Assembly (NCBI GenBank): GCA_038881895.1
Contig: JAVZOV010000005.1
Location: forward strand, 62,001 to 126,000
Source of the DNA: Thermoprotei archaeon
Lineage (GTDB): Archaea; Thermoproteota; Thermoprotei; Gearchaeales; WAQG01
Reading direction: 5' to 3'
Length of the DNA: 64,000 nt
Both the position numbers and the translations under genes were made by a program. The notes beneath the pieces were generated by a model, which had not been told where the DNA came from, made no database searches, and was given only the letters and a program-made list of their open reading frames with translations. Each line of letters opens with the position of its first letter. The first letter of the stretch is position 1. Positions 6,270 to 40,985 of the stretch are shown in pieces.

Positions 6270-6541
6270 AGTCGGCGGGGAGTCTCCATCCGTAGGGGTG
6301 GGGATGAAGGCCGATAAGCTTATATTTTTTCTCGTTGTATTTATCATTGCTTGGTTGGCAGACCTAGTAGGCATGGGACAGGCCGAAAGAGACGCCTGCT
6401 GAGGGCAAGACCTCCGTAACCCACCTTCCACACGGGATTCCCGAAACGGTCTCACCTGCCGAGACCTCCGCTGTGGGTGTGGAGATCGAGTCTGTCCGTG
6501 GAAGCAGGAAGCCACCTGCGAAAGCTGGTGGTAGTTCACTC
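6270..6541 (+). mobile_element. TnpB-less IS200/IS605-type remnant A
   Basis: Fills the 315-bp gap between the biotin ligase and the NSUN gene and is GC-rich against an AT-rich background. Left end: an 8-bp hairpin at 6286-6305 (CTCCATCC, loop GTAG, GGGTGGGG) followed by ATGAAGG. Right end: hairpin 6512-6531 (CCACCTGC, GAAA loop, GCTGGTGG, one mismatch) followed by TAGTTCAC at 6532-6539. The segment before the right hairpin is open in the frame ending VRGSRKPPAKAGGSS, which resembles archaeal TnpB C-termini. No transposase core is present. Both ends follow the same plan as remnants B, C and D. Confidence 0.65.
6371..6540 (+). pseudogene. tnpB 3'-end remnant in element A
   Basis: An open frame with no start and no catalytic core leads into the right-end hairpin. 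It is preceded by a stop at 6368-6370. Its last residues (EIESVRGSRKPPAKAGGSS) have the Pro/Gly/Ser-rich character of the poorly conserved TnpB tail that overlaps the guide RNA in IS605-type elements. It runs through the element end with no stop of its own, so the stop of the original gene is lost or the frame is decayed. Identification rests on resemblance and on the element context. Confidence 0.4.
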
Positions 6542-6571
6542 TCAAAATTGCTTAAAGACAGAACAGCTAAT

Positions 6572-7783
6572 TCAAGTTTTTCTCATTTTTGCTATGGAGA
6601 AACCAGGTGTATCATCGATATGAGGTTGAAAACGTTGTATACTTTTTCCAAAATCATAGTTGCTTAAGGAGCTCCTAGAAGCTATGAATAATTTTTGTTC
6701 TATGGGTTCAAATGGTAACTTGTTTGTTGCTTCAGACATGATCTCTTCAACTTCATGTGGAGTAATAGTACATACGCTGAACACAACTATGCCGCCTCTT
6801 TTTAAAACTTTAGATGCAGCCTTCAGAAACTGAATTTGATACTGTTGATAATCTAAAATTTTCCTAAGTGTGATATCAGATGCAAGCTTTGGGCGAACAC
6901 CTAAAGCAGAACATGGTGGATCTATTATAATTTTATCAGCTTGAAGATCTGGCATTTCTAAATCGAGGTATCTTGTATCCATTACTCTAATGTTAACATT
7001 TTTAATATTTAACCTTTCCAATGTTTCTTTAAGAATACGAACTTTTCTTTCAGAGCGATCAAAACCATAAATGCGACCATTCATATTCATAAGAAATGCT
7101 ATGTAACTTAATTTGCCACCAGGTGCAGCACACATATCTATGACAGTTTCTCTAGGTTGTGGATCTAGTTCTTTAACAGCAACCATAGAGGGTAGTGACT
7201 GTGGATAGATAAGACCCCTATTGAAACTTTCTAACTCTCTTATAGGTGGTATCTTATAAAACGTGTGTGTAACATTAACTGCTATTCCCTTGCGAATGTC
7301 CATCTGATTAAACTCATCGCTACTTATTTTTGACTTACCAATTCCTATAAGAGCACCAAATGGATCTAAAACAGCCACGAGATCATCCTTTCTTACGTTA
7401 ATCATTTTCAAAACCCCTGGAATGTAGAGATTAGCACCTTCAATTACACTCTCTGAGGCAAATTTATCTGCTATCACAACTCCGTTGAAATCTGGTAATT
7501 TATCATAATCTATGTATTGAACATCTATATAAACTGCCTCATTGATATATGGATACTTTTTTACTATCAGTCCCTCTTTTTCTAACTTATCTATAACATA
7601 ATCAACATCAATTGAAGCGATTCTAAGAAAATATCGTTTCGCTGGCTTAGTTACTGAGTAGAGCGCATCTAACCAATCATCACCATATGCTATTTTAAAT
7701 ACATCAAGAACATCAGATGAAAATCTCTCTTTTAAATCTTCAAGTATTAGCTTATTAACCATTTTTATATTTTTAAGTTCCAT
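6572..7783 (-). CDS. NOP2/Sun (NSUN) family RNA m5C methyltransferase with PUA domain
   Basis: Transfers a methyl group from SAM to cytosine C5 in rRNA or tRNA. The N-terminal region (about 1-85) is followed by a PUA RNA-binding domain (about 90-170, including the YIPGVLK segment) and a Rossmann methyltransferase. Motif I is MCAAPGGKLSYIA near 218, motif IV is DPPCSALG near 288 and motif VI is SVCTITPHE near 362. The two cysteines of the NSUN double-Cys mechanism (PPC and SVC) are present. Its 5' end overlaps the nob1 3' end by 11 bp, so it is probably the last gene of an operon nadK-nob1-nsun. RNA target not deducible. Confidence 0.93.
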   Translation of the reverse strand: MELKNIKMVNKLILEDLKERFSSDVLDVFKIAYGDDWLDALYSVTKPAKRYFLRIASIDVDYVIDKLEKEGLIVKKYPYINEAVYIDVQYIDYDKLPDFNGVVIADKFASESVIEGANLYIPGVLKMINVRKDDLVAVLDPFGALIGIGKSKISSDEFNQMDIRKGIAVNVTHTFYKIPPIRELESFNRGLIYPQSLPSMVAVKELDPQPRETVIDMCAAPGGKLSYIAFLMNMNGRIYGFDRSERKVRILKETLERLNIKNVNIRVMDTRYLDLEMPDLQADKIIIDPPCSALGVRPKLASDITLRKILDYQQYQIQFLKAASKVLKRGGIVVFSVCTITPHEVEEIMSEATNKLPFEPIEQKLFIASRSSLSNYDFGKSIQRFQPHIDDTPGFSIAKMRKT

Positions 7784-8294
7784 TTCGTATCACGCTTATC
7801 CGTTTTTTAATAGGTTTTAGTTCAGTCCCACATATTTCACAGTAATTTTTCTCATAAGTGTAATAAGTTTTACATGCAGGACAACGTTTTGACCACTTCC
7901 ATACTTCTCTAATCCCTCTAAATCCTATACTAGCAAATTTTATACCAAAAAATGCCAACATATTTTGTATAGCATAGTCATTAGTGAACACGATAGTTGA
8001 ATCACGATCCAATTCGAGTGCAAGTGCTATCACCTCTAAATCAGTCTTTGTTATGCCTTTACCTCCAAGTTTTTTATGAGCATTCTTAACCTTATTAATA
8101 CTTTCATCAGAAGGTTCAACGATCTTTATAAGACTACTAGAGACTAAAGCGTTGACCATTTCCATGCTCCATTTATTTCTTATTTCATTGACAACACCTG
8201 GTGTAGTATAAATTATCACATCTTTTTTCGCAATCCTACCTGCCAAGCCCATTAAAAATGCGGGAGTATCGAAAACAAAAATCATGATAATCAC
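7773..8294 (-). CDS. nob1: Endoribonuclease Nob1 (16S rRNA 3'-end maturation)
   Basis: Cleaves pre-rRNA at the 3' end of the small-subunit rRNA. The PIN domain carries its acidic residues in FVFDTPAF near the start, VVNEIR, KTDLEV and FTNDYAIQ. It is followed by a Cys4 zinc ribbon (CPACKTYYTY, CEICG) near 136-156. The length of 173 aa fits archaeal Nob1. GTG at 8294 overlaps the last base of the nadK stop; an ATG nine bases further in would give a slightly shorter product. The genes on each side act on RNA and on NAD respectively. Confidence 0.9.
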   Translation of the reverse strand: MIIMIFVFDTPAFLMGLAGRIAKKDVIIYTTPGVVNEIRNKWSMEMVNALVSSSLIKIVEPSDESINKVKNAHKKLGGKGITKTDLEVIALALELDRDSTIVFTNDYAIQNMLAFFGIKFASIGFRGIREVWKWSKRCPACKTYYTYEKNYCEICGTELKPIKKRISVIRNGT

Positions 8295-9133
8295 TAGATC
8301 TCTGTGATCATCCTCTTTCTGACCTTATCATAAAATCTGTTAAATCGTATAAATCGCACTCTATTTTCAGAACCAGATATCTCTATATTTGTATGCGCCT
8401 GTATTTCGCTAACAATCATACCATCGACTATTAGTAATAAACCTTTCGGAGATGTTATTCTGAGATGTGAATTTGTAGACAAAATAAGTGTTCTAAACCC
8501 CCATAACAGAGGATTCATAACATCAACAATCATCACATCTAATTCTGGATCAACAATAGGGCCTCCACGCGAAGCATTATATGCGGTTGATCCCAAACTT
8601 GTTGAAACAAGAACACCATCACATCGACCTCTATATATCAGATCATTATCCTTCTTTACGGTCATCTCAACAGTCTTTCCTAATCTACTTGGTGTGATAA
8701 GGACATCATTTAATGCATTGTAACGCCCACCATGCCATGTAACTGAAAGAAGTCTTCTCTCCTCAATATTATAATTTTTTGCCTCAAGTTTGACGAGAAC
8801 TTCCCAGAATTCTTCTGGAGTGACCTCACATAAAAATCCAACATGACCATACTTTACACCTAACAATAATGCTTTAATGTCAGCCTCTAACAATTCGTGT
8901 GCACGCTCTAACAGTGTTCCATCACCACCAACTGAGACGAAGATATCAATATCCTTCATTCCTGATGCTGGAGCATGTTTTAGGTTGAGATGATTTAGAT
9001 ATTGGTAAATTCTCTCATCAATGATGACTTCATGACCTTGTGCACTAATTTCAAAGCATATCTCTCTTGCAACTGCCATGGCCTTCATATCATCAAGTCT
9101 ACTGGATACACCAAATCTCAATTTTTCCCCCAT
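8294..9133 (-). CDS. nadK: NAD kinase
   Basis: Phosphorylates NAD to NADP using ATP or polyphosphate. The diagnostic GGDGTLLERAHE lies near residue 65. The substrate loop NDVLITPSRLG follows, then GDGVLVSTSLGSTAYN, which contains the second nucleotide-binding loop. The longer frame starting at a TTG (9154) was rejected in favour of ATG at 9133, giving MGEKLRFGVSSR, the natural first beta strand of the fold. No Shine-Dalgarno sequence precedes it, which suggests a leaderless or nearly leaderless transcript. It is first in a minus-strand run with nob1 and the NSUN gene, divergent from the Lrp-type regulator. Confidence 0.93.
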   Translation of the reverse strand: MGEKLRFGVSSRLDDMKAMAVAREICFEISAQGHEVIIDERIYQYLNHLNLKHAPASGMKDIDIFVSVGGDGTLLERAHELLEADIKALLLGVKYGHVGFLCEVTPEEFWEVLVKLEAKNYNIEERRLLSVTWHGGRYNALNDVLITPSRLGKTVEMTVKKDNDLIYRGRCDGVLVSTSLGSTAYNASRGGPIVDPELDVMIVDVMNPLLWGFRTLILSTNSHLRITSPKGLLLIVDGMIVSEIQAHTNIEISGSENRVRFIRFNRFYDKVRKRMITEI

Positions 9134-9325
9134 ATTTAAAGAGACTAAGTACAAAATAAACTAATCCATTAACAATTTCGTATTTAACATAATACCTAGC
9201 AATTTTTATATTCATTTATAGTAAACATTATTTTTTATTAAAGTTTATATTATGAACATTTATTTTAAGGAATTAAACCATTCACAAGATAACAATAAAT
9301 ACATTTTTTAAGTTAAAGAATATGG

Positions 9326-9766
9326 ATGAAAATGGACGATAAAGATAAAATAATAATAGAGATGCTAATGAAAAATGCACGTATTTCATTAGCTGAAATA
9401 GCTGAAGCATTAAAAATAAGCGATGTGGCAGTTAGTAAACGAATAAAAAAGCTTGAAGAAAATGGTATAATTAAAGGATACACCGCGATAGTTAATCACA
9501 TAAAACTTGGATATTCAAGTGCTGCAATAGTAGGTATTGATGTAGAACCTGAGAGATTACTTGAAGTGTCAAGATTACTTAAAGAGAAAAATTATGTGCG
9601 TTATTTAGCATTAACAACTGGTGATCACATGTTAATTTTGCAGGTTTTGTCCAGAAATAATTACGATTTAACTAACATTCTAAAAGATATAGCAAGTACT
9701 AGCGGTGTAAAAAGTGTGCGACCAGCAATCGTGTTAGATACTATAAAAGGAATATTAGATGGTTAA
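9326..9766 (+). CDS. Lrp/AsnC family transcriptional regulator
   Basis: The 146-aa protein has an N-terminal winged helix-turn-helix (about 1-60; SLAEIAEALKISDVAVSKRIKKLE is the HTH helix pair) and a C-terminal RAM/AsnC ligand-binding domain (about 65-140; GHD-like motif TTGDHMLILQV). Such proteins form dimers and octamers and respond to amino acids or other small molecules. The 170-bp spacer it shares with nadK is AT-rich and likely holds both promoters. Immediately downstream is IS-like remnant B. Target genes and effector cannot be read from the sequence. Confidence 0.92.
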   Translation: MKMDDKDKIIIEMLMKNARISLAEIAEALKISDVAVSKRIKKLEENGIIKGYTAIVNHIKLGYSSAAIVGIDVEPERLLEVSRLLKEKNYVRYLALTTGDHMLILQVLSRNNYDLTNILKDIASTSGVKSVRPAIVLDTIKGILDG

Positions 9767-9839
9767 TAAATGCATATGTTTTTAAGCCTTCTAGATGCTG
9801 AACTTACGAAACACTAGTAGTCAACACAAACCCTAAAAT

Positions 9840-10058
9840 AGATGTGAGCTACTCCTCGACTAAAGTTGGGAGCTTCCAGCGTTTGAGATGAGCTTTACGC
9901 TAACTCATCTGCTGGTTTGCATGGTTCACAACTCCCCCATCCCATAGAGCTCTAATCTATGGGCTATGTTTATACATGCGTTTTGTATGAGAACAAATTT
10001 AGTGAGCTAACATTATGTTTAAACTTTGCCCATTCATCCCAGCAAAACTCTAGGCTTT
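9840..10058 (-). mobile_element. TnpB-less IS200/IS605-type remnant B
   Basis: Lies in the 410-bp gap between the Lrp gene and the CBS array, in minus orientation. The left-end hairpin at 10038-10054 reads on the minus strand CCTAG, a 7-nt loop, then CTGGG, and is followed by ATGAATGGGC and a GTTTAAAC segment. The right end, at the left side, is hairpin 9852-9872 (CTCC and CGAC pair with GTTG and GGAG around a TAAA loop, one bulged T) and TAGCTCAC on the minus strand at 9851-9844. Between them the minus strand matches remnant D closely: ATAAACATAGCCCAT, CAAACCAGCAGATG, AGCGTAAAGCTC and AAACGCTGGAAGC. The tnpB frame is broken by two in-frame TGA codons. The flanks (9767-9839 and 10059-10176) hold only AT-rich promoter-like sequence. 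Confidence 0.75.
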
Positions 10059-10176
10059 CTGGACGCTCATCTATACACTCACTAATCATTCATAGTAGGA
10101 ATAGTTAGTTTAATTGTTTTTCTAAGAACAAAGTTATATACCTTAAAATTTTTTTATTATATAGAGGCGTTCAAGG

Positions 10177-10761
10177 ATGCGGTTAGGAAGGCATGAGCTG
10201 GGAACTGCTCATCAGAGAATAAAAGTAGGGGATGTAATGAGTGTAAAACCCATCATTGTTGATCCAACAACTCCTATAAAACAAGTTGCTGAAATAATGG
10301 CTAAGAAAAATATAGGTGCATTAATCATTGTTGAGGATGAAAAACCAATTGGAGTAGTAACGGAACGTGATATTGTAACTAGAGTAATAGCTAAAGGTCT
10401 TGATCCGGAAAAAACAATCGTGCGTGAAATTATGAGCCAACCTCTAATTACTGTTACACCTGACACAGATTTAAGTGAGGCAATGCGAATGATGTCAAAG
10501 TTAAAAATTAGAAGACTCGTGGTTATAAACGATGGAAAATTAGTGGGCATGGTAACAGAAACTGATATACTATCAGTAGCACCAGAGTTGATAGATTTAC
10601 TTTACGAAACATCACGCACTATAGCTCCCATATATTCTATTGAAACGTTCTCAGGTTATTGTGATATGTGTAATAGATGGACAGATAATCTAATTGAAGT
10701 TGACGGAATGTTTCTTTGCGAAGAATGTAGAAAAGAATACTTAAAACAAGAAGAAGAATAA
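10177..10761 (+). CDS. CBS-pair protein with C-terminal zinc ribbon
   Basis: First of four neighbouring CBS-domain genes. Residues about 15-75 and 80-140 are two CBS motifs (for example MSVKPIIVDPTTPIKQ and MSQPLITVTPDTDLSE, each ending in GxVTExDI). A CBS pair usually binds an adenine nucleotide or SAM. A Cys4 zinc ribbon follows (CDMCNRW and CEECRK, about 160-183). ATG at 10177 follows AT-rich promoter sequence that includes a GTTATATA stretch near 10132. The product probably senses nucleotide levels and passes the signal to a partner. The partner is not identifiable. Confidence 0.88.
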   Translation: MRLGRHELGTAHQRIKVGDVMSVKPIIVDPTTPIKQVAEIMAKKNIGALIIVEDEKPIGVVTERDIVTRVIAKGLDPEKTIVREIMSQPLITVTPDTDLSEAMRMMSKLKIRRLVVINDGKLVGMVTETDILSVAPELIDLLYETSRTIAPIYSIETFSGYCDMCNRWTDNLIEVDGMFLCEECRKEYLKQEEE

Positions 10762-10779
10762 ATTTTAAGTGGTTTCGTT

Positions 10780-11571
10780 ATGATAATGGTGAAAGAGCTA
10801 TACGATAACATGGTTCGTCCAATTAATGCAGACGAATTAGCAACAAAAGCTAGAGCAACGATGCGAAGCAGAAAGGTTAGGCTGCTTCCAGTGGTTGATG
10901 AAGAGAATAAACTGGTTGGAGTTATATATAGAAGCACATTATTGGGGTTAGCTTCAACAAGATCTACACTCTTAGTTCGTGATATAATGTCCTTACCTAA
11001 AGTAATCGCTTATCCAGAGGATAATGCAGAAGAAGTTACAAAAAGAATGTTAAAAGTTGATGAATGGTATGCGCCAGTCGTCAAATCTAAGACTGACATG
11101 ACTTATATAGGAATATTTGGTCTTGAGCATATGATTGAAGAATACTTGCGGCGAGGTGGTCCAAAGTTAGAAATCAGATTAGAACAAATAATGAAAACTG
11201 ACCTAGTTACAGTAAAGCCGACCGATCCAATTTCAGTAGTGTGGAGAAAAATGATAGAAAAATCATATGCGGGAATACCGGTCGTCGATGATAAAATGCA
11301 TTTCGTTGGTCTTGTGACACAACTTGATTTACTTCTCTCCCGAGCTCCAGCACTAAATCTTTTCTTAGAAAGAATTCCAGCAAGCAGTGCGCCTGAAGTG
11401 TCAAGAGTAATGAACCGAAACGTTATTATTGCTAAACCCTATACAACTTTAGGAGAGGCCGCATATACCATGTTAAGACTTGAAATAGGACGTTTACCAG
11501 TCGCTGATGATGCAGGAATACTTATAGGCATGGTAGATAGAGAGGACATAGTGCGCGCACTCATGGAGTGA
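10780..11571 (+). CDS. Protein with four CBS domains (263 aa)
   Basis: Four CBS motifs in a row make up nearly the whole protein, with no catalytic or DNA-binding domain. The recognisable starts are MVRPINADELATKARATM, DIMSLPKVIAYPEDNAE, IMKTDLVTVKPTDPIS and VMNRNVIIAKPYTTLGE, and two of the repeats end in a GLVTQLDLL or GMVDREDIV strand-helix. Two tandem pairs can form a disc-like adenosine-ligand binding module. It lies 18 bp after the first CBS gene and 6 bp before the next, so an operon is likely. Probably a nucleotide-responsive regulatory subunit. Confidence 0.88.
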   Translation: MIMVKELYDNMVRPINADELATKARATMRSRKVRLLPVVDEENKLVGVIYRSTLLGLASTRSTLLVRDIMSLPKVIAYPEDNAEEVTKRMLKVDEWYAPVVKSKTDMTYIGIFGLEHMIEEYLRRGGPKLEIRLEQIMKTDLVTVKPTDPISVVWRKMIEKSYAGIPVVDDKMHFVGLVTQLDLLLSRAPALNLFLERIPASSAPEVSRVMNRNVIIAKPYTTLGEAAYTMLRLEIGRLPVADDAGILIGMVDREDIVRALME

Positions 11572-11577
11572 GGAAGA

Positions 11578-12501
11578 ATGTCCAACATTCCTATCAGAAA
11601 ACGTGAGAATCCCAGATTCCTTATGAAAGGTGCTCCTAGCTCATTTCCAACAAAGTCCGCATCAAATAGAAATGAAATCTTATTAGTTGCTCTACAAAAC
11701 TTTCCAACAGTAACATCATCCACGCCTGTAAAAATCGTTATAGATAACATAGCAGGAAGTGATATACGCAGGTTACCAGTAATTAATCCTGGTAATGAAA
11801 TATTAAAAGGATCAATCCCGATGATGAACATTATAGATTTCCTAAACGGAGAAAGATCTAACATTATTAAATCGAAGCATAATGGTAACTTATTTAAAGC
11901 ACTTATGGAACCAGCAGGGATACTCATCGAAAGCAAAACAATCACTGCAACACTAGATACTAGAATCGATGATGCTATAGCTCTTATGGCCAAGACTGGA
12001 ATAGGAACACTTATAATAGTTGACAATAAAAATCGTGTACGCTGTATACTTACGGAGAAAATTGTACTAAAGATGCTAGCAGGAAAGCTCACGTCAGTAC
12101 TAGTAAACGACATAATGACAAAGAACCCCATAACCACCACATCAAATGCGACGGTTGGAGAAGCACTTTCAACAATGTTAAAAAAAGGGTTCAGAAGGCT
12201 ACCAGTTATTGAGGAAGGAAAATTAGTTGGTATTTTCACGGGCATGGGATTATTAAGATATCTGAAAGGAAGTGGAATTTACACTTTAGTCAAGTCCGGC
12301 AATATTAATGACTTACTCTCAATAAAGATCGATGCATTAATGGTAAAAAATCCGATAACAATCACTCCTGATAAAACAACAACCGAGGCAGCTAAAATAA
12401 TGATCGAGAAAGGTGTTGGAAGTTTACCCGTTATAGAGGATGGAATACTTAAAGGAATTCTAACCGAGAGAGACTTTTTAAAGATGTTAGCACAAAAGTA
12501 A
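11578..12501 (+). CDS. Protein with CBS domains, first one degenerate (307 aa)
   Basis: The third CBS gene. The first ~110 residues retain parts of a CBS fold (ILLVALQNFPTVTSSTPV, RRLPVINPGNEILKG) but are poorly conserved. Clear motifs follow: TITATLDTRIDDAIALMAK, IMTKNPITTTSNATVGEA with RRLPVIEEGKLVGIF, and LMVKNPITITPDKTTTEA with GSLPVIEDGILKGILTERDF. Starts 6 bp after the previous stop, with GAGGA just upstream. It likely shares the regulatory role of its neighbours, and the divergence among the copies argues for distinct ligands or partners. Confidence 0.85.
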   Translation: MSNIPIRKRENPRFLMKGAPSSFPTKSASNRNEILLVALQNFPTVTSSTPVKIVIDNIAGSDIRRLPVINPGNEILKGSIPMMNIIDFLNGERSNIIKSKHNGNLFKALMEPAGILIESKTITATLDTRIDDAIALMAKTGIGTLIIVDNKNRVRCILTEKIVLKMLAGKLTSVLVNDIMTKNPITTTSNATVGEALSTMLKKGFRRLPVIEEGKLVGIFTGMGLLRYLKGSGIYTLVKSGNINDLLSIKIDALMVKNPITITPDKTTTEAAKIMIEKGVGSLPVIEDGILKGILTERDFLKMLAQK

Positions 12502-12517
12502 CATAGGTGAGAGGTTC

Positions 12518-13384: not shown

Positions 13385-13385
13385 G

Positions 13386-13886: not shown

Positions 13887-13921
13887 ACATTAAACAAAAA
13901 TAGTTCTAAAAAGATAAAAAA

Positions 13922-16734: not shown

Positions 16735-16755
16735 CCTACATCTTAACATATTTTG

Positions 16756-17940
16756 GTGTGTATCTTGAGATATTTTTATATCGCAACTAATGAAGAGATA
16801 CTTTCAGGAAAAGTTACGGACACATATTATCCTAGAGCTCTACAAGTTTTAAAAGTGAAAGGAATTTCACGTAAAAATGTGGTCATGGATGTACACTCTT
16901 ATAGTACGCCTAAGGATTACTCATGGGGAATTTTTGCAGGTTTGGAGGAAGCATTGCATCTCTTTGAAAATAAACCAGTAGATGTTTACGCTATGGATGA
17001 AGGTACAATGTTTAGAGTAATGGAACCTGTTTTTAGTGTGCGCGGACCTTATGAAGAATTCGGTGTTTATGAGCCTACTTTAATAGGAATACTAAGACAT
17101 TACAGTAGCGTTGCTACTAAAGCTGCCAGATGTAAGAAAGCAGCTGGTGATAGGCAAGTGATCTTTTTTGGCATAAGAGCGGTACACCCTGCCATAGCTC
17201 CAATGATTGATAGGGCTGCATTTATTGGCGGTTGTGATGCCGTTTCAGGAATACTCGGCGCTGAGTTGATTAATGAGAAAAGTGTTGGAACAATGCCCCA
17301 TGAATTAATACTTTTGTTTGAAGATGTCAAAGATGCGTGGAAAGCATTTGATGAAATTGTTGACCCCTCTGTTCCTAGAATTGCTTTGTGTGATACCATG
17401 TTCGATGAAAGAACTGAAGTTTGGATGGCTGCCGATACATTAGGTAAAAAGCTCTACGGTATACGTATAGACACTCCAAGATCCAGAAAAGGAGATATAA
17501 GGCAGCTTTTAAGTGAGATACGTTGGATTCTTAACATGAAAGGGTTGCATAATACTAAGATCGTGTTAAGTAGTGGTATTGATGAATATCAAATCCAAGC
17601 TACGAAAGATCTTGTTGACATTTATGGAATTGGCACTTCTATAGCATTTCCTCCCTCAATCGATTTCGCTTTTGACATTGTAGAAATCAATGGAAAACCA
17701 TTCTCTAAAAGAGGTAAATTCCCAGGAAGAAAACAAGTTTATCGTTGCCAAGACTGCATGTATGATGAAATACGTCTAGAGTCAGATCAACCACCTGAAA
17801 AATGTCCCAGATGCGGTGGAAAAATGGAACCATTATTAAAACCAGTAATAAAGAACGGTAAGCTTGTTAAAGAATTACCATCTGCACGAGATATTAGAAG
17901 TTATGTTATTAGACAGTTAGAGAAAATTGAAGGATTTTAA
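16756..17940 (+). CDS. pncB: Nicotinate phosphoribosyltransferase
   Basis: Converts nicotinate and PRPP to nicotinate mononucleotide in NAD salvage. The 394-aa protein has the barrel fold of type II phosphoribosyltransferases, with EPTLIGILRHYSSVATKAAR near 112-131 and FFGIRAVHPAIAPMIDRAAF near 142 that shape the active site. DTPRSRKGD near 240 and the glycine-rich strand ending GIGTS near 290 fit the phosphate-binding region. A C-terminal Cys4 zinc ribbon (CQDCMYDE, CPRCGGK) is typical of the archaeal form. The start could be TTG 16753 or GTG 16756; the latter was chosen from the promoter position. Confidence 0.9.
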   Translation: MCILRYFYIATNEEILSGKVTDTYYPRALQVLKVKGISRKNVVMDVHSYSTPKDYSWGIFAGLEEALHLFENKPVDVYAMDEGTMFRVMEPVFSVRGPYEEFGVYEPTLIGILRHYSSVATKAARCKKAAGDRQVIFFGIRAVHPAIAPMIDRAAFIGGCDAVSGILGAELINEKSVGTMPHELILLFEDVKDAWKAFDEIVDPSVPRIALCDTMFDERTEVWMAADTLGKKLYGIRIDTPRSRKGDIRQLLSEIRWILNMKGLHNTKIVLSSGIDEYQIQATKDLVDIYGIGTSIAFPPSIDFAFDIVEINGKPFSKRGKFPGRKQVYRCQDCMYDEIRLESDQPPEKCPRCGGKMEPLLKPVIKNGKLVKELPSARDIRSYVIRQLEKIEGF

Positions 17941-17957
17941 TTTAAAAAATATTGTTT

Positions 17958-18297: not shown

Positions 18298-18306
18298 CAT
18301 AAATTA

Positions 18307-28554: not shown

Positions 28555-28765
28555 TTTTGACACTCTCATCAACTAAAGTCAGAAGGTTCTCGGTTTTTCA
28601 GTTTCGTGCTTCATCGTACCGAGTTAAGGGCTGTGCCAATTCAGCTCGGAACCTTATTTTGGACATCCGAGCCTCATTTGAGCGACACGCTCAAACAAAG
28701 GAGAGCTCATCACATTTAAACCTTTCAGCAATTCATCCCAGAACTAAAGTTCTAGGCTTTCCTGC
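28555..28765 (-). mobile_element. TnpB-less IS200/IS605-type remnant C
   Basis: Inserted between the TFS and PCNA genes of the information cluster, minus orientation. Left end: hairpin 28737-28756, on the minus strand CCTAGAAC, loop TTTA, GTTCTGGG, followed by ATGAATTGC and GTTTAAATG, as in B and D. Right end: a weak hairpin at 28566-28586 (GACTTTAGTT core) close in sequence to the right end of B. Inside, the minus strand holds MKHETEKPRTF-like coding and three copies of the CCGAG/CTCGG element that could form alternative stems. No usable TnpB frame remains. The left-end hairpin is 14 bp from the TFS stop. Confidence 0.6.
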
Positions 28766-28769
28766 CGAA

Positions 28770-29096
28770 CTATTTGTAATCTCTCCATGTGTGCCCACAT
28801 TTTGTGCATTTATAAAACGTAGTCGGTGGCTCATCAGCTGAACGTGTTTGTATCATCCACCAGTAAGCTTCATTATTACCGCATTTAGGGCACTCTACTC
28901 TAGTTTTTGGTAATGTGGAACTATCTGTGTTATCATTACTTATTAGTATATCCTTTTGGGTTTTTGATAATACAGATGATATTATGATTTGTCTTTCTGA
29001 TTCTTCCACATATCCGCAATTAGGACACATAAATCTCACTTTCCCACTCTTACGTTCGGGCTTCATTATGCTACCACATTTTGGACAGAACTTCAT
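28770..29096 (-). CDS. tfs: Transcription factor S (TFS), RNA cleavage factor
   Basis: A 108-aa TFIIS/Rpb9-like protein. The N-terminal zinc ribbon (CPKCGSIMKPER and CPNCGYVEES) is followed by a linker and the C-terminal ribbon (CPKCGNNEAYWWMIQTRSADE, CTKCGHTWRDYK). The QTRSADEPPT stretch contains the acidic DE pair inserted into the polymerase active site to cleave RNA, so the factor should be active. Confidence 0.96.
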   Translation of the reverse strand: MKFCPKCGSIMKPERKSGKVRFMCPNCGYVEESERQIIISSVLSKTQKDILISNDNTDSSTLPKTRVECPKCGNNEAYWWMIQTRSADEPPTTFYKCTKCGHTWRDYK

Positions 29097-32205: not shown

Positions 32206-32334
32206 TTCAGTACATCTGAATTCTTTATGTATAATAAGCTTATTTTTGTTAGTTTATTTAAGGTTCTATGAGAAATGTAATAGAGTGTTGGGTTAGATTT
32301 AAATAAAACAACTGCCATAATCGTGGTGGTGAAC

Positions 32335-32691: not shown

Positions 32692-32751
32692 AAGCTAATA
32701 AAAATATTTACGAAAAGTAAATAAACAGAGAGGAATAAATAGAATAGAAAA

Positions 32752-34947
32752 ATGAAAACTCACACTTCGAAAAACACGATAAGTTACGAAAAAAATATTA
32801 TGCCTAGAATAATGGTTAATGCTGAGGAGGACCCTGATTGGTTTTATCCTAGAACTAAACGATTTTTATTACGAACACCCACTGCAGAATTAGGATTCTC
32901 ATGTTTTTCAGTTAAAACGATAATAAACTCTACAGAGTACATAGTACCTAACAGAGATTACAGCTATGAAGGTTTCAATGCACTATTGAATGATGATAAT
33001 TGGAAGATTATTGATGGATTTGCGCTTTCTGTATTCAATGAGGATAAATTCACGGCTCCAAAACCTGTTAATTTAATCATAAAACCTAACGAAGTAACAT
33101 ACAATTATGTCATTAATAATAACACCATTTCATTGACATATAAGTTAATAGACCTCATTGAAGCTGCACAATTAAAAATCGATATAAAAACTAGTGAGCC
33201 GATGCGTGCCAAAATTGCGCCCTTTATAGATATGAGACATGTTTATGATAACTCTGCACCTAATGAACACAATATAAAAGAGATAGGTAAAAATTACTTA
33301 CTCATAAATCGAAAGAATTATGAACTAAAAATAATGCTTGATGGTAATGAACCCCTTTTCTCATTGAAAGAATGTTTATTACAATGGATTTATAAATTAG
33401 GTGATGGTGCTCGTGAAGAAAGTGAAAAGGGTGTAATATTTAGACCGCACGTTAAAACATTATACATACCAGGCTTTTTTGAAGTTGAAGGTAATAAGAT
33501 TTCCATTAATGCCATAGTTTATTTGATTAATAACACCTCAAGAATAGGGAAAACGTATTCTGTGAGTAATATAGAGTTAGAGCAAGTGTTCAATAAATTT
33601 TTAGACATCTCCTTGGGTGTTGAATATTTTGATAATGCTTTATTTGGTTTGATTTCAACATTACATACTCTGGGAATACGTGCAAAATCCTTTAATATAA
33701 TTTTACCAGAGGCTGGCGCATGGTGGTTTAGGTCAGTATGGGTTAGAGATTTGATGGAAGCAATCAGCAATAATTTCATGGCACTAACAAGATTAAAAGG
33801 AGAAAAATGGATCATGGAAGTATTGAGGATAATGTCCTTAATGTTAAGTAAAGAAATAGGCCTTCTACCGATCACTATTATGCATAAAGATAAGCTTCCT
33901 TGTTCCTATACAGTTGATGGAACACTTAAGTGGATTCTCAATTATCTCAAATTTCTCTCAGAATATTGGGATGCAAAAGAAGCATTAATCCTCTTAGACA
34001 ATGTAAGTAGCATGATAGCAGCATGGAGCAATACAAAAAACATGTTTACACAAATAGATGAGATAACAGGGCTTCTTAGAACTGTGGCATGTCAAAGCTG
34101 GATAGACACTATGATACGTGTGAATATTGATGGTTTTATTTATCGCGTGCCTAGCAGATTGAGCATAGATTCAATAAGAGAATTATGGGAGAAAAGAAGA
34201 GACATCGAAAAGTATTTATCGTTACCAACGATTTTACTCCCAGAAATTAATGCAATGTGGCTAAAGATGTTAGATCAAACGTTGTGGCTTATTAAAAAAT
34301 TGCAATCAGAAGGTTATGATGTAGATAATGTTTCAGATATTCTTAATAGGTTACTAAAAAGTGGGAAGAAAAATTACGTAAAATTTTTTTGGAATCGTGA
34401 CACAAACAAATTGAATAATGCAGTGATACTTGAATATGATATAGAAGATGCTATATCCTCATCAACTAGCATTGTGTCCGTATCAACTGTACCATGGATA
34501 TTTAATAGAAATATGCTGGATGAAATTTGGACTATGATGAAAAATGATTTACTAGTTTATAGACGTATTTCGCTAAATAACGAATGGAAGCCGTTCGGAA
34601 TAATAACTAGGACTACTGGTAGTAGGGTTTTTAAGGGAGATGAGGAATATCATGGGTATGTAGTATGGCCTAGGGATACACCGTATTTGATTGATTTAGC
34701 GCACATATTAAATGAGAAAGAATTCATTGGTGATATATTACTGAATTATTTAGATGCATTAATATCAGAATCAACAGTGTTTCATGCAAGAGAACTATAT
34801 GCGTTACCTGTAGGTAAAAATCCTTACCCTACGGAAACATCAGGCAATCCAATACCTGTAAAAAATCCGTCACAATCGTGGAGCATATTCATAGACCCGT
34901 ACATTAAATTTAGAGATATTATAGTGGAAAGACTGTTACATAGTTAA
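32752..34947 (+). CDS. Glycogen debranching enzyme-like glycoside hydrolase
   Basis: A 731-aa protein with an N-terminal beta-rich domain (about 1-280) and an (alpha/alpha)6 barrel (about 285-730). Barrel motifs are GAWWFRSVWVRDLMEAISNN near 322, CSYTVDGTLKWI near 384 and YVVWPRDTPYLIDLAH near 640. These match the amylo-alpha-1,6-glucosidase/GDE_C clan, in which acidic residues of the RD and DxT motifs are catalytic. No signal peptide, so it is likely cytoplasmic and works on storage glucans or disaccharides. No glycogen genes are adjacent, so the exact substrate is open. Confidence 0.75.
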   Translation: MKTHTSKNTISYEKNIMPRIMVNAEEDPDWFYPRTKRFLLRTPTAELGFSCFSVKTIINSTEYIVPNRDYSYEGFNALLNDDNWKIIDGFALSVFNEDKFTAPKPVNLIIKPNEVTYNYVINNNTISLTYKLIDLIEAAQLKIDIKTSEPMRAKIAPFIDMRHVYDNSAPNEHNIKEIGKNYLLINRKNYELKIMLDGNEPLFSLKECLLQWIYKLGDGAREESEKGVIFRPHVKTLYIPGFFEVEGNKISINAIVYLINNTSRIGKTYSVSNIELEQVFNKFLDISLGVEYFDNALFGLISTLHTLGIRAKSFNIILPEAGAWWFRSVWVRDLMEAISNNFMALTRLKGEKWIMEVLRIMSLMLSKEIGLLPITIMHKDKLPCSYTVDGTLKWILNYLKFLSEYWDAKEALILLDNVSSMIAAWSNTKNMFTQIDEITGLLRTVACQSWIDTMIRVNIDGFIYRVPSRLSIDSIRELWEKRRDIEKYLSLPTILLPEINAMWLKMLDQTLWLIKKLQSEGYDVDNVSDILNRLLKSGKKNYVKFFWNRDTNKLNNAVILEYDIEDAISSSTSIVSVSTVPWIFNRNMLDEIWTMMKNDLLVYRRISLNNEWKPFGIITRTTGSRVFKGDEEYHGYVVWPRDTPYLIDLAHILNEKEFIGDILLNYLDALISESTVFHARELYALPVGKNPYPTETSGNPIPVKNPSQSWSIFIDPYIKFRDIIVERLLHS

Positions 34948-34990
34948 TGATAGATAACTGTACTGAAGTATGAAGCTTAACATTCTTTTG

Positions 34991-35455
34991 TTAACTTAGT
35001 GGTTTTTCCGTACTTATTTTTAAAAGGTAAAGCACAATTGATGCTAATCCTATTACGCTCATCATGCCAGGTACTCCTATATGAACTGCTTTTCCTAATT
35101 CTAGTTCTCTTTTTGTTAATCCTGGTTCCATTCCTCCAAAAACTAGGAATACATTTTTATCGATGTTTTTAAGTTCTTCTGGGTTAAATTTATTGTTGGA
35201 ATTTTCCGGGGATGTGAATAACATAAATTCTCCTTGAAATAATTCTTTTATGTCTTTTAGATCTGGGACGATTATTAATTTTACACCAGTTTTTACTGCG
35301 ATTTTAAAAGCTTCTGGTATACCTACTTGTGCTGCTGAACCTATTGGCTTTGAAATTATAATAGTTTTGTATCCCAGTGATGTGCATATAGATACGAACT
35401 CTTCTAGCCTGTTTGGACTGTTTATGTTATGAAGTACGGGTATTATCTCAGACAT
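34991..35455 (-). CDS. SPOUT-fold protein (COG4080-like)
   Basis: A 154-aa protein. The signatures are IPVLHNINSPNRLEEFVSIC at the start, KTIIISKPIGSAAQVGIPEA near 30 and a knot-like C-terminal stretch LVFGGMEPGLTKRELELG, HIGVPGMMSVIGLASIVLYLL. These suit a small archaeal SPOUT methyltransferase-like family sometimes annotated as RecB-related. ATG at 35455 was preferred to an in-frame TTG at 35464. RNA substrate unknown. Confidence 0.65.
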   Translation of the reverse strand: MSEIIPVLHNINSPNRLEEFVSICTSLGYKTIIISKPIGSAAQVGIPEAFKIAVKTGVKLIIVPDLKDIKELFQGEFMLFTSPENSNNKFNPEELKNIDKNVFLVFGGMEPGLTKRELELGKAVHIGVPGMMSVIGLASIVLYLLKISTEKPLS

Positions 35456-35476
35456 CGCAATCAAACAAATAATAAA

Positions 35477-36436
35477 TTACCAATTAATATTTCTAAGCAA
35501 AAAATCAGCTATTGCTTTAGCTAAAGGAACAGGTACAGCTTCTCCGACTTGATCAAACTGTGAATCTTTACCGCCATAAAATATAAAGTTATCAGGAAAT
35601 CCCATTAACCTTGCATGTTCTCTAACAGTAAGCAACCTATTTTCAAATGGATGAATGAACCTAGATTTACCCATAATTGGTGGCGCGAGCTTATAGGGAT
35701 CAAGCCTTATAAAGTTTGACTTCATTTTCCCATCGGCTCCAACAAAACTAATCATGGATTGATTTCTTTTTAACCTAGAAATTTTCCTAAACCTTCTATA
35801 TCCGACTGATACGTACTCATGGTTTGGAATGTTATGATCACTTTTAGGATCTGGAAGATCACCTATCGCATCCCATACTGTTGTTCGCCTGTTAGATTTT
35901 TGGGGTTGCAACTCAACATTAGAAATAAACATTCTTCTTCTGAGGGATGGTGTACCATAATCTTCAGCATCAAGAACGTTAAAATAAACTTTATAACCTA
36001 CACGCGCAAACTCCCTCTTTAATTGTTCTTTTAAAATGCCATCAGCTATATGAATCACATTCTCCATAACGAATATTTTTGGTTGCAGATCACCAACAAT
36101 TCTTATAAAATGTAACGTCAGTTGTCCACGTGGATCTTTATAAAGCCTATCAAGTGGATCTGGCATTCTTTTAAAGTTAGCTGATGTGAAGGATTCACAT
36201 GGTGGTCCACCTATTATAACATCAGGTTGACCAATAAGAGATTCAATCTGATTTGATGTCACTTCCTTTATATCACTTAATATTAATTCAGCATCAGGGA
36301 AATTTGCTTTAAATGTCTTTCCTGCAGCTTCGAAATTATCTAGACCAGCGACTATCTTAAATCCAGCTTCTTTAAATCCTTCGCTAAATCCTCCTGCTCC
36401 TGAAAATAAATCTAATACTTTAATTATTTGACGCAT
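35477..36436 (-). CDS. dcm: DNA (cytosine-5) methyltransferase, orphan
   Basis: A 319-aa m5C DNA methyltransferase with motifs in canonical order: I VLDLFSGAGGFSEGF, IV GGPPCESFT with the catalytic cysteine near 82, VI FVMENV, VIII DYGTPSLRRRMFIS, a short target-recognition region, then IX-X LTVREHARLMGFPDNF and QVGEAVPVPLAKAIADFL. No restriction endonuclease or specificity gene is adjacent, so it acts alone or the partner is elsewhere. ATG at 36436 fits motif I spacing; a TTG at 36448 is in frame. Confidence 0.92.
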   Translation of the reverse strand: MRQIIKVLDLFSGAGGFSEGFKEAGFKIVAGLDNFEAAGKTFKANFPDAELILSDIKEVTSNQIESLIGQPDVIIGGPPCESFTSANFKRMPDPLDRLYKDPRGQLTLHFIRIVGDLQPKIFVMENVIHIADGILKEQLKREFARVGYKVYFNVLDAEDYGTPSLRRRMFISNVELQPQKSNRRTTVWDAIGDLPDPKSDHNIPNHEYVSVGYRRFRKISRLKRNQSMISFVGADGKMKSNFIRLDPYKLAPPIMGKSRFIHPFENRLLTVREHARLMGFPDNFIFYGGKDSQFDQVGEAVPVPLAKAIADFLLRNINW

Positions 36437-36581
36437 TCTATTTTTCAATGAATATTAAAAACTTCGTACAAATAAATTTTAGTATTTAAAAAGCTCTTAA
36501 TTTTTACTTGGAATATTCTATTGTATTGGTATCTATAAGCTCAGATAAATTAAAATTAAGGTTATATAATTAAGATAGTGT

Positions 36582-37736
36582 ATGGTGAAGGAAGAAAATA
36601 ATGAGTTTGTTGTGACACCTTGGGAAGTGAAGGGTAGGGTTGATTATGAGAAACTAATGAAGCAATTCGGTACTGAACGAATTACAGATGAGTTAAGACT
36701 AAGATTAGAAGAGTACGCGAAGGATTTGCATGTTTTGCTCAGAAGAAATGTTTTCTTTTCTCATAGAGATCTAGATAAGATTCTCGATGATTACGAAAAG
36801 GGGAGGGGTTTCTTTCTTTATACTGGTAGAGGTCCTAGTGGTCCGATGCATATTGGGCATATTATACCTTTTATAATGACAAAGTGGTTGCAGGAGAAAT
36901 TTAACGTGAATGTTTATATAGAATTAACTGATGATGAGAAATTCCTTGATGAGGAAAGTTTTACTTTAGATGATGTGCGTAAGTGGGCTTATGAAAACTC
37001 ACTGGATATAATAGCTTTAGGTTTTGATCCTGATAAAACCTTTATATTTAAAGATACAGAATACATAAAAAATATGTATCCATTGGCTATAAAAATAGCT
37101 AAGAAAATTAATTTTTCGCTCGTAAAGGCAGTTTTTGGTTTTAAGAATGAGACTAATATAGGTATGATATTTTATCCAGCACTACAAATAGTACCAACGT
37201 TTTTTGAAAAAAGACGTTGCTTAATACCAGCTGCTATAGATCAAGATCCATATTGGAGAATACAAAGAGATATCGCTGAAAGTTTCGGTTATTATAAAGC
37301 GGCTGCAATACATAACAAATTCCTTCCACCATTAACAGGGCTTGAAGGAAAAATGAGCGCATCGCAACCAGAAACTGCTATATATCTGCACGATGATTCC
37401 AAAACAGTAGAGTATAAGATTATGAGGTATGCGTTCTCAGGTGGTCAATCCACAGTAGAACTCCATAGGAAATTAGGCGGTAATCCAGATATAGATGTAT
37501 CATTTCAATGGCTTAAATTCCTATTCGAACCTGATGATTCGAAATTAAAAAAGATTGAGGATGATTATAGATCAGGAAAGATGCTTACTGGTGAACTGAA
37601 AAGAATATTGATAGAGAAGATAAATGATTTCTTAGAGAATCACAGATCTAGAAGGGAGGAAGCTAGAAAGTTAATAAAAGATTTCATGTATGATGGAGCA
37701 TTAGCATCAGAAATGAACAAACAAATATTAGAATAA
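36582..37736 (+). CDS. trpS: Tryptophanyl-tRNA synthetase
   Basis: A class I synthetase of archaeal/eukaryotic type, 384 aa. The HIGH motif is GPSGPMHIGHIIPF near 88-101, and the KMSKS motif is LEGKMSASQPETA near 258. The active-site IELTDDEKFL loop and the DQDPYWRIQRDIAE segment support the Trp enzyme. Starts ATG at 36582. Convergent with the L10e gene 2 bp later. Confidence 0.96.
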   Translation: MVKEENNEFVVTPWEVKGRVDYEKLMKQFGTERITDELRLRLEEYAKDLHVLLRRNVFFSHRDLDKILDDYEKGRGFFLYTGRGPSGPMHIGHIIPFIMTKWLQEKFNVNVYIELTDDEKFLDEESFTLDDVRKWAYENSLDIIALGFDPDKTFIFKDTEYIKNMYPLAIKIAKKINFSLVKAVFGFKNETNIGMIFYPALQIVPTFFEKRRCLIPAAIDQDPYWRIQRDIAESFGYYKAAAIHNKFLPPLTGLEGKMSASQPETAIYLHDDSKTVEYKIMRYAFSGGQSTVELHRKLGGNPDIDVSFQWLKFLFEPDDSKLKKIEDDYRSGKMLTGELKRILIEKINDFLENHRSRREEARKLIKDFMYDGALASEMNKQILE

Positions 37737-37738
37737 AT

Positions 37739-38257
37739 CTATGATGCTTTGTTTTTAATGCTTCTAACTATAATTGAACACGGCATAGGCATTTTTGATG
37801 ATGCCCTTCGCAACGCCTCTTTAACCTCATTAATGAATTGTGGCTCTGTCCACACTGTCATTATTACATCGTTAGTGTCGACTATAGCAGCTCTACCAGT
37901 GGGTTTTCCAAAAGCTCTTCTCATACCCTCTTGAAGTCTATCAGCACCAGCCATAGCTAACATTTTATTCTCTCTTATTATATGATGAGGATATTTAACC
38001 ACTCTTAGATGATAGTTTTCATCTTTTATCGTTGCCGAAAGATACTTGTTAGCCATAACACGCGCTGCTTCTAGAGCGTTATGTCTAATTAAACCACTCT
38101 CTTCAGAAACTAGATCTATTTGGATACTAAATTGTTTACCTGGAGAGCCCATGTCAAACTTATTGATCTTTGGTTGTGGAGCACCATCAATATACTCAGT
38201 CCTAGTATAAGGCGGTGTATCTAAATATCTATAGCATCTTCCTGGTCTTAGCGGCAT
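37739..38257 (-). CDS. rpl10e: 50S ribosomal protein L10e (uL16)
   Basis: A 172-aa ribosomal protein near the peptidyl transferase centre and tRNA site. Starts MPLRPGRCYRYLDTPPYTRTEY. Conserved ENKMLAMAGADRLQEGMRRAFGKP lies near 96-119. A single-gene unit, divergent from polB. Confidence 0.97.
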   Translation of the reverse strand: MPLRPGRCYRYLDTPPYTRTEYIDGAPQPKINKFDMGSPGKQFSIQIDLVSEESGLIRHNALEAARVMANKYLSATIKDENYHLRVVKYPHHIIRENKMLAMAGADRLQEGMRRAFGKPTGRAAIVDTNDVIMTVWTEPQFINEVKEALRRASSKMPMPCSIIVRSIKNKAS

Positions 38258-38388
38258 TGTTTATCACCCACTAAGAGAACTAGAACTTCAAATATAAGTA
38301 TTTGCTAAGAAGTTTAGTATGCTTATTCTGTTTCGTTAAATTGTTTATAGCTAGTCTTTTTAAGCTCTGCGGGTATCTTATAAGTGAG

Positions 38389-40725
38389 ATGCCTTACTGG
38401 ATTATTGATATTAATCATGAGGTTGTTAGTAGGAACAATGTTAAGAGGGATGAGATTTGGCTCTGGTGTGTTAATGATGATGGTGAGAGAGTATTATTAG
38501 TTGATGGTAGTTTTAAACCTTTTTTGTATGTTGAGGTCTCGGTTGGTGTACCTATTAAAGAGCTTGAGGAAAATTTGAGGAACACATTGTCTGGATTTTT
38601 TGAAAGAATATCTATTGTGGAGAAGAAGAGATTAGGAAAACCTATTAAAGTTGTTGAAATTGTCTTTAAAGATTCTGATTTCAAAGATAAGGCTCTTGAA
38701 AAGATAAACAGCTTACGGGGAGTTGGAAATGTGTATAATTCTGATATACGACCTAGTCTTCTATATTTCATAACGAGAGATTTGAAACCGTCAAGTTGGA
38801 TCGATGCTGAAATTATTGAAAGTTTGAAAATTACTAACATTCCATATGAAATCAAAGAGATTAGAAATCCTCGAATTGTTGAGAATAAGCAGTTGCCAAA
38901 GTTAAAGGAGATGTATGTTATGTTTTTTGCTTTTAGAAAAATTGGCACTCCTGATCCTGATGAAGATCCATTAGCTTTTATTGCAGTTGCGTTTGATAAT
39001 AATGAACCCTTCATAATAGAAGCTGATAATGATAAGGAAATTATAAACATGTTAATTAAATTGGTATCTGAGAATGATCCAGACCTTGTAATTGGATGGG
39101 AAACGAATAGGTGGAGTTTCAATTATCTTAGTAGAAGAGCCGAAGTTAATAAGGTAAGATTGTCTCTTGGAAGGAATGGTGATGTGCCTAGGGGAGGAGT
39201 ATATGGTCACATATCATTAGTTGGCAGAATTCATGTTGATGTAAGAGATATTGCTGAAGGTATGCCTGAACTTAAGATGAAGACACTTGAGGAAATGAGT
39301 ATTCATCATGGTGTTTGGAAAGGAAATGTGATTGAGAATGTAGAGCTCAATGATATGTGGTTTAGTGGTGAAAGAGATAAAGCTAAAGATTATGCTTTAA
39401 AACTTATTAGCTCGTTACGTGATCTTTGGAAATTATACTTTGATTATACTGTACATCTGAGCTCATTAGTTGGATATCCTATGGATTATGTGCTTAAAGC
39501 GTCGCCTGGACATAGAGTTGATGGATATATAGTGTATCATTCAATGAAGCTTAATGAGGTCATACCGCGTAAAGTGGAATCTGCATATGAGAGGTATAGG
39601 GGTGCAATAGTTTTTACACCAAGTCCTGGACTACATACTAATGTTGCAGTGTTAGATTTTGCATCAATGTATCCTCGCATAATAGCTAAGTACAATATTT
39701 CACCAGATACTTTAATGCAGAAAGAAGAATCTAGTGAAGCGTACGTTGCACCTGAAGTTGGTCATAGATTTAGGGTCTCACCTGATGGTCTTTATAAATC
39801 TGCAATACTTAGATTGCTCGAAGCTAGAGAACAGATTAAAAGACGTATAAAGGAATTACCTGAAGGCCCTGAAAGAAAAGCTCTAGAGTCTCAAGAGCGT
39901 GCTATAAAGGTTGTAGCAAATGCAATGTATGGTTATGTAGGGTGGGTTTCTTCTAGATGGTATATGAAGGAGGTCGCCGAGGCTATAACAGCTTGGGGTA
40001 GAAATACTATAGTTAAAGCTGCTGAGCTAGCTAACAAAGAATTTGGTTTAAAAGTGATATACGGTGATACTGATTCACTCTTTGTTGAGTATAAAGGTGT
40101 GGATGTAGATAAGTTAATTGATGCTATTGAAAATGAGTTAGGAATGGAGATTAAGTTAGAGACGATCTATAAACGTGTTTTATTTACTGAGGCAAAGAAA
40201 CGTTATGCTGGTCTTACGATTGATGATGAACTCGATTTAACAGGCTTTGAAGTAGTTAGGGGAGATTGGTGTGATTATGCAAGACGCACACAAGAAAGGA
40301 TTTTGAGCGTGCTTCTCATAACAGGCAATGTAAATCAAGCTGTTGATGTTGCGAGAGAAATGATAGAAGCTTTTAAGAATGAAGAGTTCACTATAAAAGA
40401 TGTAGTTATCTGGAAAAGTCTTGATAAACCTTTATCGGATTATAAAGCAAGAGCTCCACACGTTTCCATAGCTCTTCAGCTTTCTAAAAAAGGTTGGAAA
40501 TTCAGAGTTGGTGATAAGATAGGGTATGTTGTCGCTAAAGGACAGGGCCCAATATATGAGAGAGCCGTTTTCTATGACGATGCTGAAAAATCTATCGTCG
40601 ATATAGATTATTATATCACTAACCAAATAATACCTGTAGCGTTAAGAGTTCTTGAACCATTAGGAATTACAGAAGATCAGTTAATAAAAAAGGCAGCAAA
40701 AGGAGGACTTGATCAATTCTTTTAA
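38389..40725 (+). CDS. polB: Family B DNA polymerase with disrupted exonuclease motifs
   Basis: The 778-aa product has intact polymerase motifs: A LDFASMYPRIIAKY near 425, B KVVANAMYGYVGW near 510 and C YGDTDSLFVEY near 564. The 3'-5' proofreading motifs look lost. Exo I, normally DIE, reads MFFAFRKIG near 186. Exo II, normally NFD, reads TNRWSFNYL near 246. Exo III, normally YxxxD, reads YALKLI near 333. The C-terminus GGLDQFF fits a PCNA-interacting box. ATG at 38389 (MPYWIIDINHEVV) fits the family start; a longer frame begins at 38302. It probably synthesises DNA without proofreading, or works as a specialised polymerase. Confidence 0.88.
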   Translation: MPYWIIDINHEVVSRNNVKRDEIWLWCVNDDGERVLLVDGSFKPFLYVEVSVGVPIKELEENLRNTLSGFFERISIVEKKRLGKPIKVVEIVFKDSDFKDKALEKINSLRGVGNVYNSDIRPSLLYFITRDLKPSSWIDAEIIESLKITNIPYEIKEIRNPRIVENKQLPKLKEMYVMFFAFRKIGTPDPDEDPLAFIAVAFDNNEPFIIEADNDKEIINMLIKLVSENDPDLVIGWETNRWSFNYLSRRAEVNKVRLSLGRNGDVPRGGVYGHISLVGRIHVDVRDIAEGMPELKMKTLEEMSIHHGVWKGNVIENVELNDMWFSGERDKAKDYALKLISSLRDLWKLYFDYTVHLSSLVGYPMDYVLKASPGHRVDGYIVYHSMKLNEVIPRKVESAYERYRGAIVFTPSPGLHTNVAVLDFASMYPRIIAKYNISPDTLMQKEESSEAYVAPEVGHRFRVSPDGLYKSAILRLLEAREQIKRRIKELPEGPERKALESQERAIKVVANAMYGYVGWVSSRWYMKEVAEAITAWGRNTIVKAAELANKEFGLKVIYGDTDSLFVEYKGVDVDKLIDAIENELGMEIKLETIYKRVLFTEAKKRYAGLTIDDELDLTGFEVVRGDWCDYARRTQERILSVLLITGNVNQAVDVAREMIEAFKNEEFTIKDVVIWKSLDKPLSDYKARAPHVSIALQLSKKGWKFRVGDKIGYVVAKGQGPIYERAVFYDDAEKSIVDIDYYITNQIIPVALRVLEPLGITEDQLIKKAAKGGLDQFF

Positions 40726-40734
40726 CTTTATCAC

Positions 40735-40985
40735 AACTTGCAAGAAGACCCCATCCGCAAGGGTGGGGATGAATTGCGTTAAACTTAAATAACTCAGAGT
40801 AGCACTTAAGTTTAGGAATGTTTCCTAACCGAGATTTGAACAGGGCTATAAACATAGCCCATGCCTTAATGAGAGGCATGGGATGGCGGAGCTGTGAGCC
40901 CCGCAAACCAGCAGATGCGACTGGAAGCGTAAAGCTCCAGACAAACGCTGGAAGCCCCTTGCGATAGCGAGGGGTAGTTCACTCC
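40735..40985 (+). mobile_element. TnpB-less IS200/IS605-type remnant D
   Basis: Fills the gap between polB and sufU. Left-end hairpin 40749-40768 (CCCCATCC, GCAA, GGGTGGGG) is followed by ATGAATTGCG and TTAAACTTAAATA. Right-end hairpin 40955-40974 (CCCCTTGC, GATA, GCGAGGGG, 8 pairs) is followed by TAGTTCAC at 40975-40982. The interior shares long blocks with remnant B (AACATAGCCCAT, CAAACCAGCAGATG, AGCGTAAAGCTC, AAACGCTGGAAGC). It is the best preserved of the four. The stop codon of sufU (40979-40981 on the minus strand) lies inside its terminal TTCAC. Confidence 0.8.
40803..40967 (+). pseudogene. tnpB 3'-end fragment in element D
   Basis: An open frame ending in a TAG at 40965-40967 encodes FPNRDLNRAINIAHALM, which is the RuvC-III motif (DRDxNAAxNI) that closes the TnpB nuclease domain, then GMGWRSCEPRKPADATG and KLQTNAGSPLR. 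The frame is cut by a TAG at 40800-40802, so the fragment has no start and lacks the other catalytic motifs. The left end joins directly to this tail, indicating an internal deletion of nearly the whole tnpB. Confidence 0.75.

Follow-up and report, generated by a model that had tools for sequence, protein, structure and literature searches.

Among the closest described relatives of the elements considered here are the PATEs of Haloquadratum, which are gene-less and derived from IS605, have near-terminal palindromes, make no target duplication and outnumber the transposases (PMC3119063). SMN1 is mentioned in PMC3718332, which cites Berkner and Lipps 2007, as a 320-bp Sulfolobus MITE mobilised by ISC1733. 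In the literature searched no RNA role for SMN1 was found. In S. islandicus the TAM is TTTAA for elements with tnpA and tnpB and TTTAT for solo-tnpB elements (PMC10640517). The omega RNA of ISDra2 is linked to tnpB and takes the right flank as its guide; its scaffold of 116 nt holds a GAA/UUC pseudoknot at positions -5 to -3 (PMC10097598).

The window is a stretch of 64,000 nucleotides (contig 5, positions 62001-126000) within a 1.75 Mb archaeal assembly that is 97% complete. An initial annotation described four TnpB-less remnants of IS605-type elements in it, two in each orientation. These are real, with A and D on the forward strand and B and C on the reverse (Table 1). A and D have no transposase gene, carry subterminal palindromes and lack terminal inverted repeats, which is the layout of the PATE/MITE type. 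We argue, at a probability of about 0.66, that the elements are gene-less IS605 elements with a stand-alone omega RNA that is used by TnpB in trans. The argument starts from the ends, target motif, copies, parent, fold, transfer and a relative's empty site, all observed; transcription, TnpB loading and cleavage are what we infer as their best explanation.

Table 1. Features of the four elements in the window (positions count from its first letter).
Feature	Position	Strand	Basis or remark
TAM-like target motif TTTAA of element A	6262..6266	+	TTTAAC in 34/34 A copies
Element A, gene-less IS605-type mini-element	6267..6539	+	one of 14 genome copies
Left hairpin of A, then GATGAA	6284..6306	+	aligned copies; hairpin varies between the two archaeal genomes
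BRE/TATA-like archaeal box of A, putative promoter	6309..6326	+	CCGATAAGCTTATATTTT
Omega-RNA-like stand-alone body of A (model R1)	6371..6539	+	covariance model, covarying helices
Right hairpin and end of A, TAGTTCAC	6513..6539	+	seen in sequence
Would-be guide of A, first 20 nt of right flank	6540..6559	+	analogy with TnpB omega RNAs
Element B, decayed solo element, c6/c7 RNA type	9844..10065 (left boundary approximate)	-	sequence, R2 model matches
Element C, decayed solo relative of cluster-2 TnpB elements	28557..28771	-	compared with cluster-2 ends
Target motif TTTAT of element D	40727..40731	+	3/3 D copies and both cluster-3 TnpB elements
Element D, gene-less, mosaic	40732..40982	+	layout as in A; three copies 98-100% identical
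Would-be guide of D	40983..41002	+	unique to window copy

The copy count that the initial annotation proposed gives 14 full-length copies of A in the window's genome (93-100% identical) and three of D (98-100%), each 3' of TTTAT. It had also raised random flanks as a possibility. The flanks are not random, as a strict TAM-like motif, TTTAA for A and TTTAT for D, precedes the elements. When 34 copies of A in two genomes were found through an internal motif and the flank was then read, TTTAAC stood before 34/34, against a background in which TTTAA makes up 0.37% of positions. Every complete A copy terminates in TAGTTCAC. The right flanks all differ, and the 20-nt would-be guide of A is found at no other copy. 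It must be noted that TAGYTCAC by itself is not evidence, with 6 occurrences found where a mean of 3.0 is expected, which is within chance. What places the elements beyond chance is copy number and flanks. The fixed copies are mostly intergenic with differing flanks, and their orientation relative to neighbouring genes is unbiased (12 vs 10). Among the loci examined there is no empty site for a copy of A or D, and no off-site target for the guides of the genome's copies.

A left hairpin followed by GATGAA was claimed for all four elements. It is there in A, D and C, while the left hairpin of B is weak. On the right, the hairpin and TAGYTCAC-type end stand for A, B (which ends in TAGCTCAC) and D. 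C is decayed as claimed, with GTGTCAA in place of TAGYTCAC, and B proved decayed too. The short blocks said to be common to B and D are there, 40 nt at 88% identity and 33 nt at 85%. Still, the four elements are not a single family but trace back to separate IS605-type sources. Both ends of A recur in a cluster 5 TnpB element (type c5), C matches cluster 2 (c2) and B matches the type of C3:35285 (c7). In D, a mosaic, a cluster-3-like left end is combined with a cluster-6-like RNA body and a cluster-5-like right hairpin, and the element is 84% identical to the c6 3' end over 154 nt. For the ends of D only mosaic partners carrying tnpB were found, unlike the tnpA+tnpB parent of A. The R2 model finds at least 29 strong RNA bodies of the B/D type in the genome, only two of which (C3:35285 and C3:188959) coincide with a TnpB-domain match.

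The genome has 63 TnpB-domain matches, one Y1 transposase and 12 serine-recombinase matches in 1.75 Mb. Its TnpB loci group into several clusters. Clusters 0 and 1 look IS607-type: they lack hairpin ends with GATGAA, and upstream of them lies a helix-turn-helix or serine recombinase. A single IS607-like cluster holds 26 of the 63 matches, and its aligned members have a helix-turn-helix remnant upstream with no full serine recombinase. Cluster 5 has one intact member of 382 aa (C1:439374) and one that is truncated (C1:136467). A TnpA matching A is absent from this 97% complete assembly, which keeps the one intact c5 tnpB. The genome's sole Y1 TnpA, an unrelated one, was considered as a helper for A, but the ends of its element are different. 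Since the matching TnpA is missing, the A copies of this genome may now be immobile. Locus C2:406251-407814 is a diverged A-type element split by an IS607-type tnpB element; its A-like match (C2:406251-406398) was rejected as a tnpB-linked parent on that ground.

The initial annotation proposed a search for TnpA and TnpB with matching ends, and an intact element does exist, in another genome. The A-core pattern has 31 matching stretches, and all of them are in Candidatus Brockarchaeota archaeon DRTY-1.bins.18, which belongs to the same phylum as the window's genome and to another class. DRTY-1.bins.18 has only one Y1 transposase gene, and this lies inside a 1587-bp element (TAM included) that encodes TnpA together with a TnpB of the cluster-5 type and has the same ends as A. 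This tnpA+tnpB element is the autonomous parent of A. At least 19 full-length A copies are found beside it in that genome, and many others are cut by contig ends. In the C1:439374 element the place upstream of tnpB, taken by tnpA in the DRTY element, is occupied by an ORF of 41 aa whose match is VapB/DUF7557 antitoxin-like.

The A copies of the two genomes are 82-92% identical in DNA, whereas sampled orthologous proteins are only about 40-58% identical. The family therefore moved by horizontal transfer and was then amplified in each lineage. The cluster-5 TnpB of the window's genome and that of DRTY differ with dN 0.12 and dS 0.90, so this protein is under purifying selection. The intact c5 TnpB retains the RuvC residues D188, E272 and D332, and ISDra2 TnpB is among the best matches of the DRTY ortholog to solved structures. 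Cluster-5 TnpB (C1:439374; L143:390-1520) has no cysteine zinc-finger of the TNB domain and keeps the RuvC residues; this zinc-finger-less form occurs in two archaeal classes.

Relatives of the A type are carried by the S. islandicus plasmids pARN4 and pHVE14 and by Acidianus tailed spindle virus. Across the insertion pARN4 reads GGTTTTAA, element, TGAAGTTAAGAACC, and the same site in pARN3 is uninterrupted (GGTTTTAATGAAGTTAAGAACC). pARN3 is thus the empty site, and the pARN4 element was inserted immediately 3' of TTTAA, without target duplication. Mobility of this type of element is shown by that empty site in a relative. If the RNA of the pARN4 copy is made, it would have a perfect TAM-bearing target on pARN3. 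Plasmid pYN01 has TTCTGA in place of TTTTAA at this position and so has no TAM, though the would-be target is kept. In the spindle virus the annotated ORF ATSV_D57 lies antisense inside the A-type solo element (17392-17565) and is probably not a real gene. Viral contigs gave no exact match to the A-core pattern.

The claim that a guide-RNA region is kept is supported, as the body of A is a covarying RNA. The covariance model R1 represents this body over 171 nt and matches 29/398 genomes of the phylum. No upstream TnpB ORF abuts the RNA at any of the 40 R1 loci inspected. R1 was built from solo elements and favours solo architecture, yet it also finds the tnpB-linked cluster-5 RNAs, which score 43-45 bits with the whole model covered. 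On 26 diverse sequences RNAalifold predicts 32 pairs, and compensatory changes occur in 19 of these. For the covariation test the terminal hairpin was excluded because it is also a DNA signal for TnpA, and a CCUGC/GCAGG pseudoknot was added, which leaves 29 helix pairs. Within the body 94.9% of helix cells pair, and 79 cells are compensated by a double change, against 25.7 after shuffling and 6-14 in slid controls. Folded as a single sequence, A has only a small advantage over shuffles (z = -1.1). GUUCA, directly before the guide, and a GAA upstream of it give a GAA...UUC pairing in the register that the pseudoknot of ISDra2 has, scaffold positions -5 to -3. This pairing is argued from its position more than from covariation, since its cells are mostly invariant. 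The box CCGATAAGCTTATATTTT follows the left hairpin and precedes the RNA body, and it is almost invariant in 28 aligned A copies.

Compared with that of the tnpB-linked cluster-5 RNA, the inner domain of the solo RNA is enlarged, with two extra helices and a hairpin. For this reason compatibility with c5 TnpB is not guaranteed. It also changes how the loss of the nuclease should be read. There is no tnpB inside the elements, as was claimed, but A is not simply a recent or local tnpB deletion, because its inner domain is absent from tnpB-linked RNAs and the solo lineage is widespread. The RNA of A belongs to that widespread solo lineage, and Rfam 15 has no family corresponding to it.

The would-be guides have a composition of their own. 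The first 20 nt to the right of A-type elements, read on the element strand, are G-poor and C-rich in three independent sets: 22 G and 76 C in the window's genome, 52 G and 93 C in DRTY, and 144 G and 256 C in 50 copies of other genomes (218 G vs 425 C when summed). The bias fades past 20-40 nt from the right end. It is absent from the genome's IS607-type copies (143 G, 141 C) and from ten copies of the B/D type. Either selection in favour of unstructured guides or a preference of TnpA for certain single-stranded targets could explain it, and we treat it as a lead rather than proof.

One can imagine a scenario where only the DNA ends matter, and the RNA-like interior is inherited filler that looks similar through recent spread, with any RNA being inert. 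A copies within one genome are indeed highly similar, the literature amply describes MITEs and PATEs for which no RNA function is known (PMC3119063, PMC3718332), and TnpA alone explains the terminal hairpins. However, TnpA needs only the ends, and the internal helices covary across many families. Between the two genomes the body of A is also better conserved than the element's left part, and the components of the pseudoknot are retained. We consider inert filler an unlikely account of this interior.

It is also worth considering that the solo RNA does bind TnpB, only not as a working guide, and mainly titrates or silences TnpB or the parent element. The extra conserved inner domain, absent from tnpB-linked RNAs, would fit such a role, as would the many solo copies for each TnpB. 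However, a decoy does not strictly need the guide-proximal end (UAGUUCAC and the pseudoknot), which is kept, and an invariant TAM motif and a composition bias in the would-be guide region also argue against it, so we find this role distinctly improbable. The last scenario makes the fixed copies guide RNAs domesticated by the host, which would bring TnpB, or a nuclease-dead relative, to certain loci and so regulate or protect them. There are multiple fixed copies, mostly intergenic and with differing flanks, and c5 TnpB is under purifying selection. But no copies are shared at orthologous sites and no other guide match exists among the loci examined, the family moves horizontally, and TnpB retains its RuvC residues. 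Domestication would be very surprising here.

We argue instead for gene-less elements whose stand-alone RNA serves TnpB in trans. They keep a conserved guide-RNA-like RNA and the parental motif, and therefore probably borrow both proteins: they probably move by a borrowed transposase and aim by a borrowed TnpB nuclease. They would be palindrome-associated IS200/IS605 mini-elements (PATE/MITE type) that keep both DNA hairpins recognised by the Y1 transposase. Between the promoter-like box and the right end would lie a stand-alone omega RNA, with flanking DNA as its guide. The TnpA of an autonomous relative would excise the elements and reinsert them without duplication, A exactly 3' of TTTAA and D exactly 3' of TTTAT. 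The element's own promoter would drive transcription of the RNA, and the right flank would serve as guide. A TnpB of the SisTnpB1 type may then use the solo RNA in trans to cleave unoccupied copies of the site, which would favour retention and spread of the element.

A wider version of this scenario is one we hold tentatively, at somewhat less than even odds. Gene-less IS605 elements would be an ancient mobile guide-RNA lineage across the Thermoproteota, with an architecture and promoter of their own, that travels on plasmids and a virus and parasitises TnpB; the pARN4 element would arm the host's TnpB against pARN3-like sisters. If we are right, supposedly inert MITEs such as SMN1 and the PATEs are a set of mobile guide RNAs, and archaeal TnpB works with many guides made in trans. 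Such an arrangement would be a move in the direction of CRISPR, where nuclease and guide array are separate. The pARN4/pARN3 pair and a culturable Sulfolobus make the idea directly testable.

The known systems each match a part of this picture. The Haloquadratum PATEs resemble A and D in their gene-less layout with near-terminal palindromes and in their IS605-type origin. A conserved guide RNA is not described for them (PMC3119063), whereas here a covarying RNA body is kept across the phylum. SMN1, as cited at second hand above, is about 320 bp, gene-less and hosted by Sulfolobus islandicus, and the pARN4 and pHVE14 relatives are 327 bp including the TAM; judging by size and host, they are likely of the same family. 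The S. islandicus IS200/IS605 elements, including SisTnpB1, have TAMs identical to the motifs of A (TTTAA) and D (TTTAT), and the spacing of RuvC residues in SisTnpB1 is similar to that of c5 TnpB. The RNA of that system is linked to tnpB, while the RNA of A and D stands alone. The ISDra2 omega RNA has the same register of the guide-proximal GAA/UUC pseudoknot as A, whose body differs by its expanded inner domain. Altae-Tran in 2021 reportedly described stand-alone omega RNAs of IscB in Ktedonobacter, orphan guides served by a nuclease in trans. Those RNAs serve IscB, whereas the partner we propose for the A-type RNA would be TnpB.
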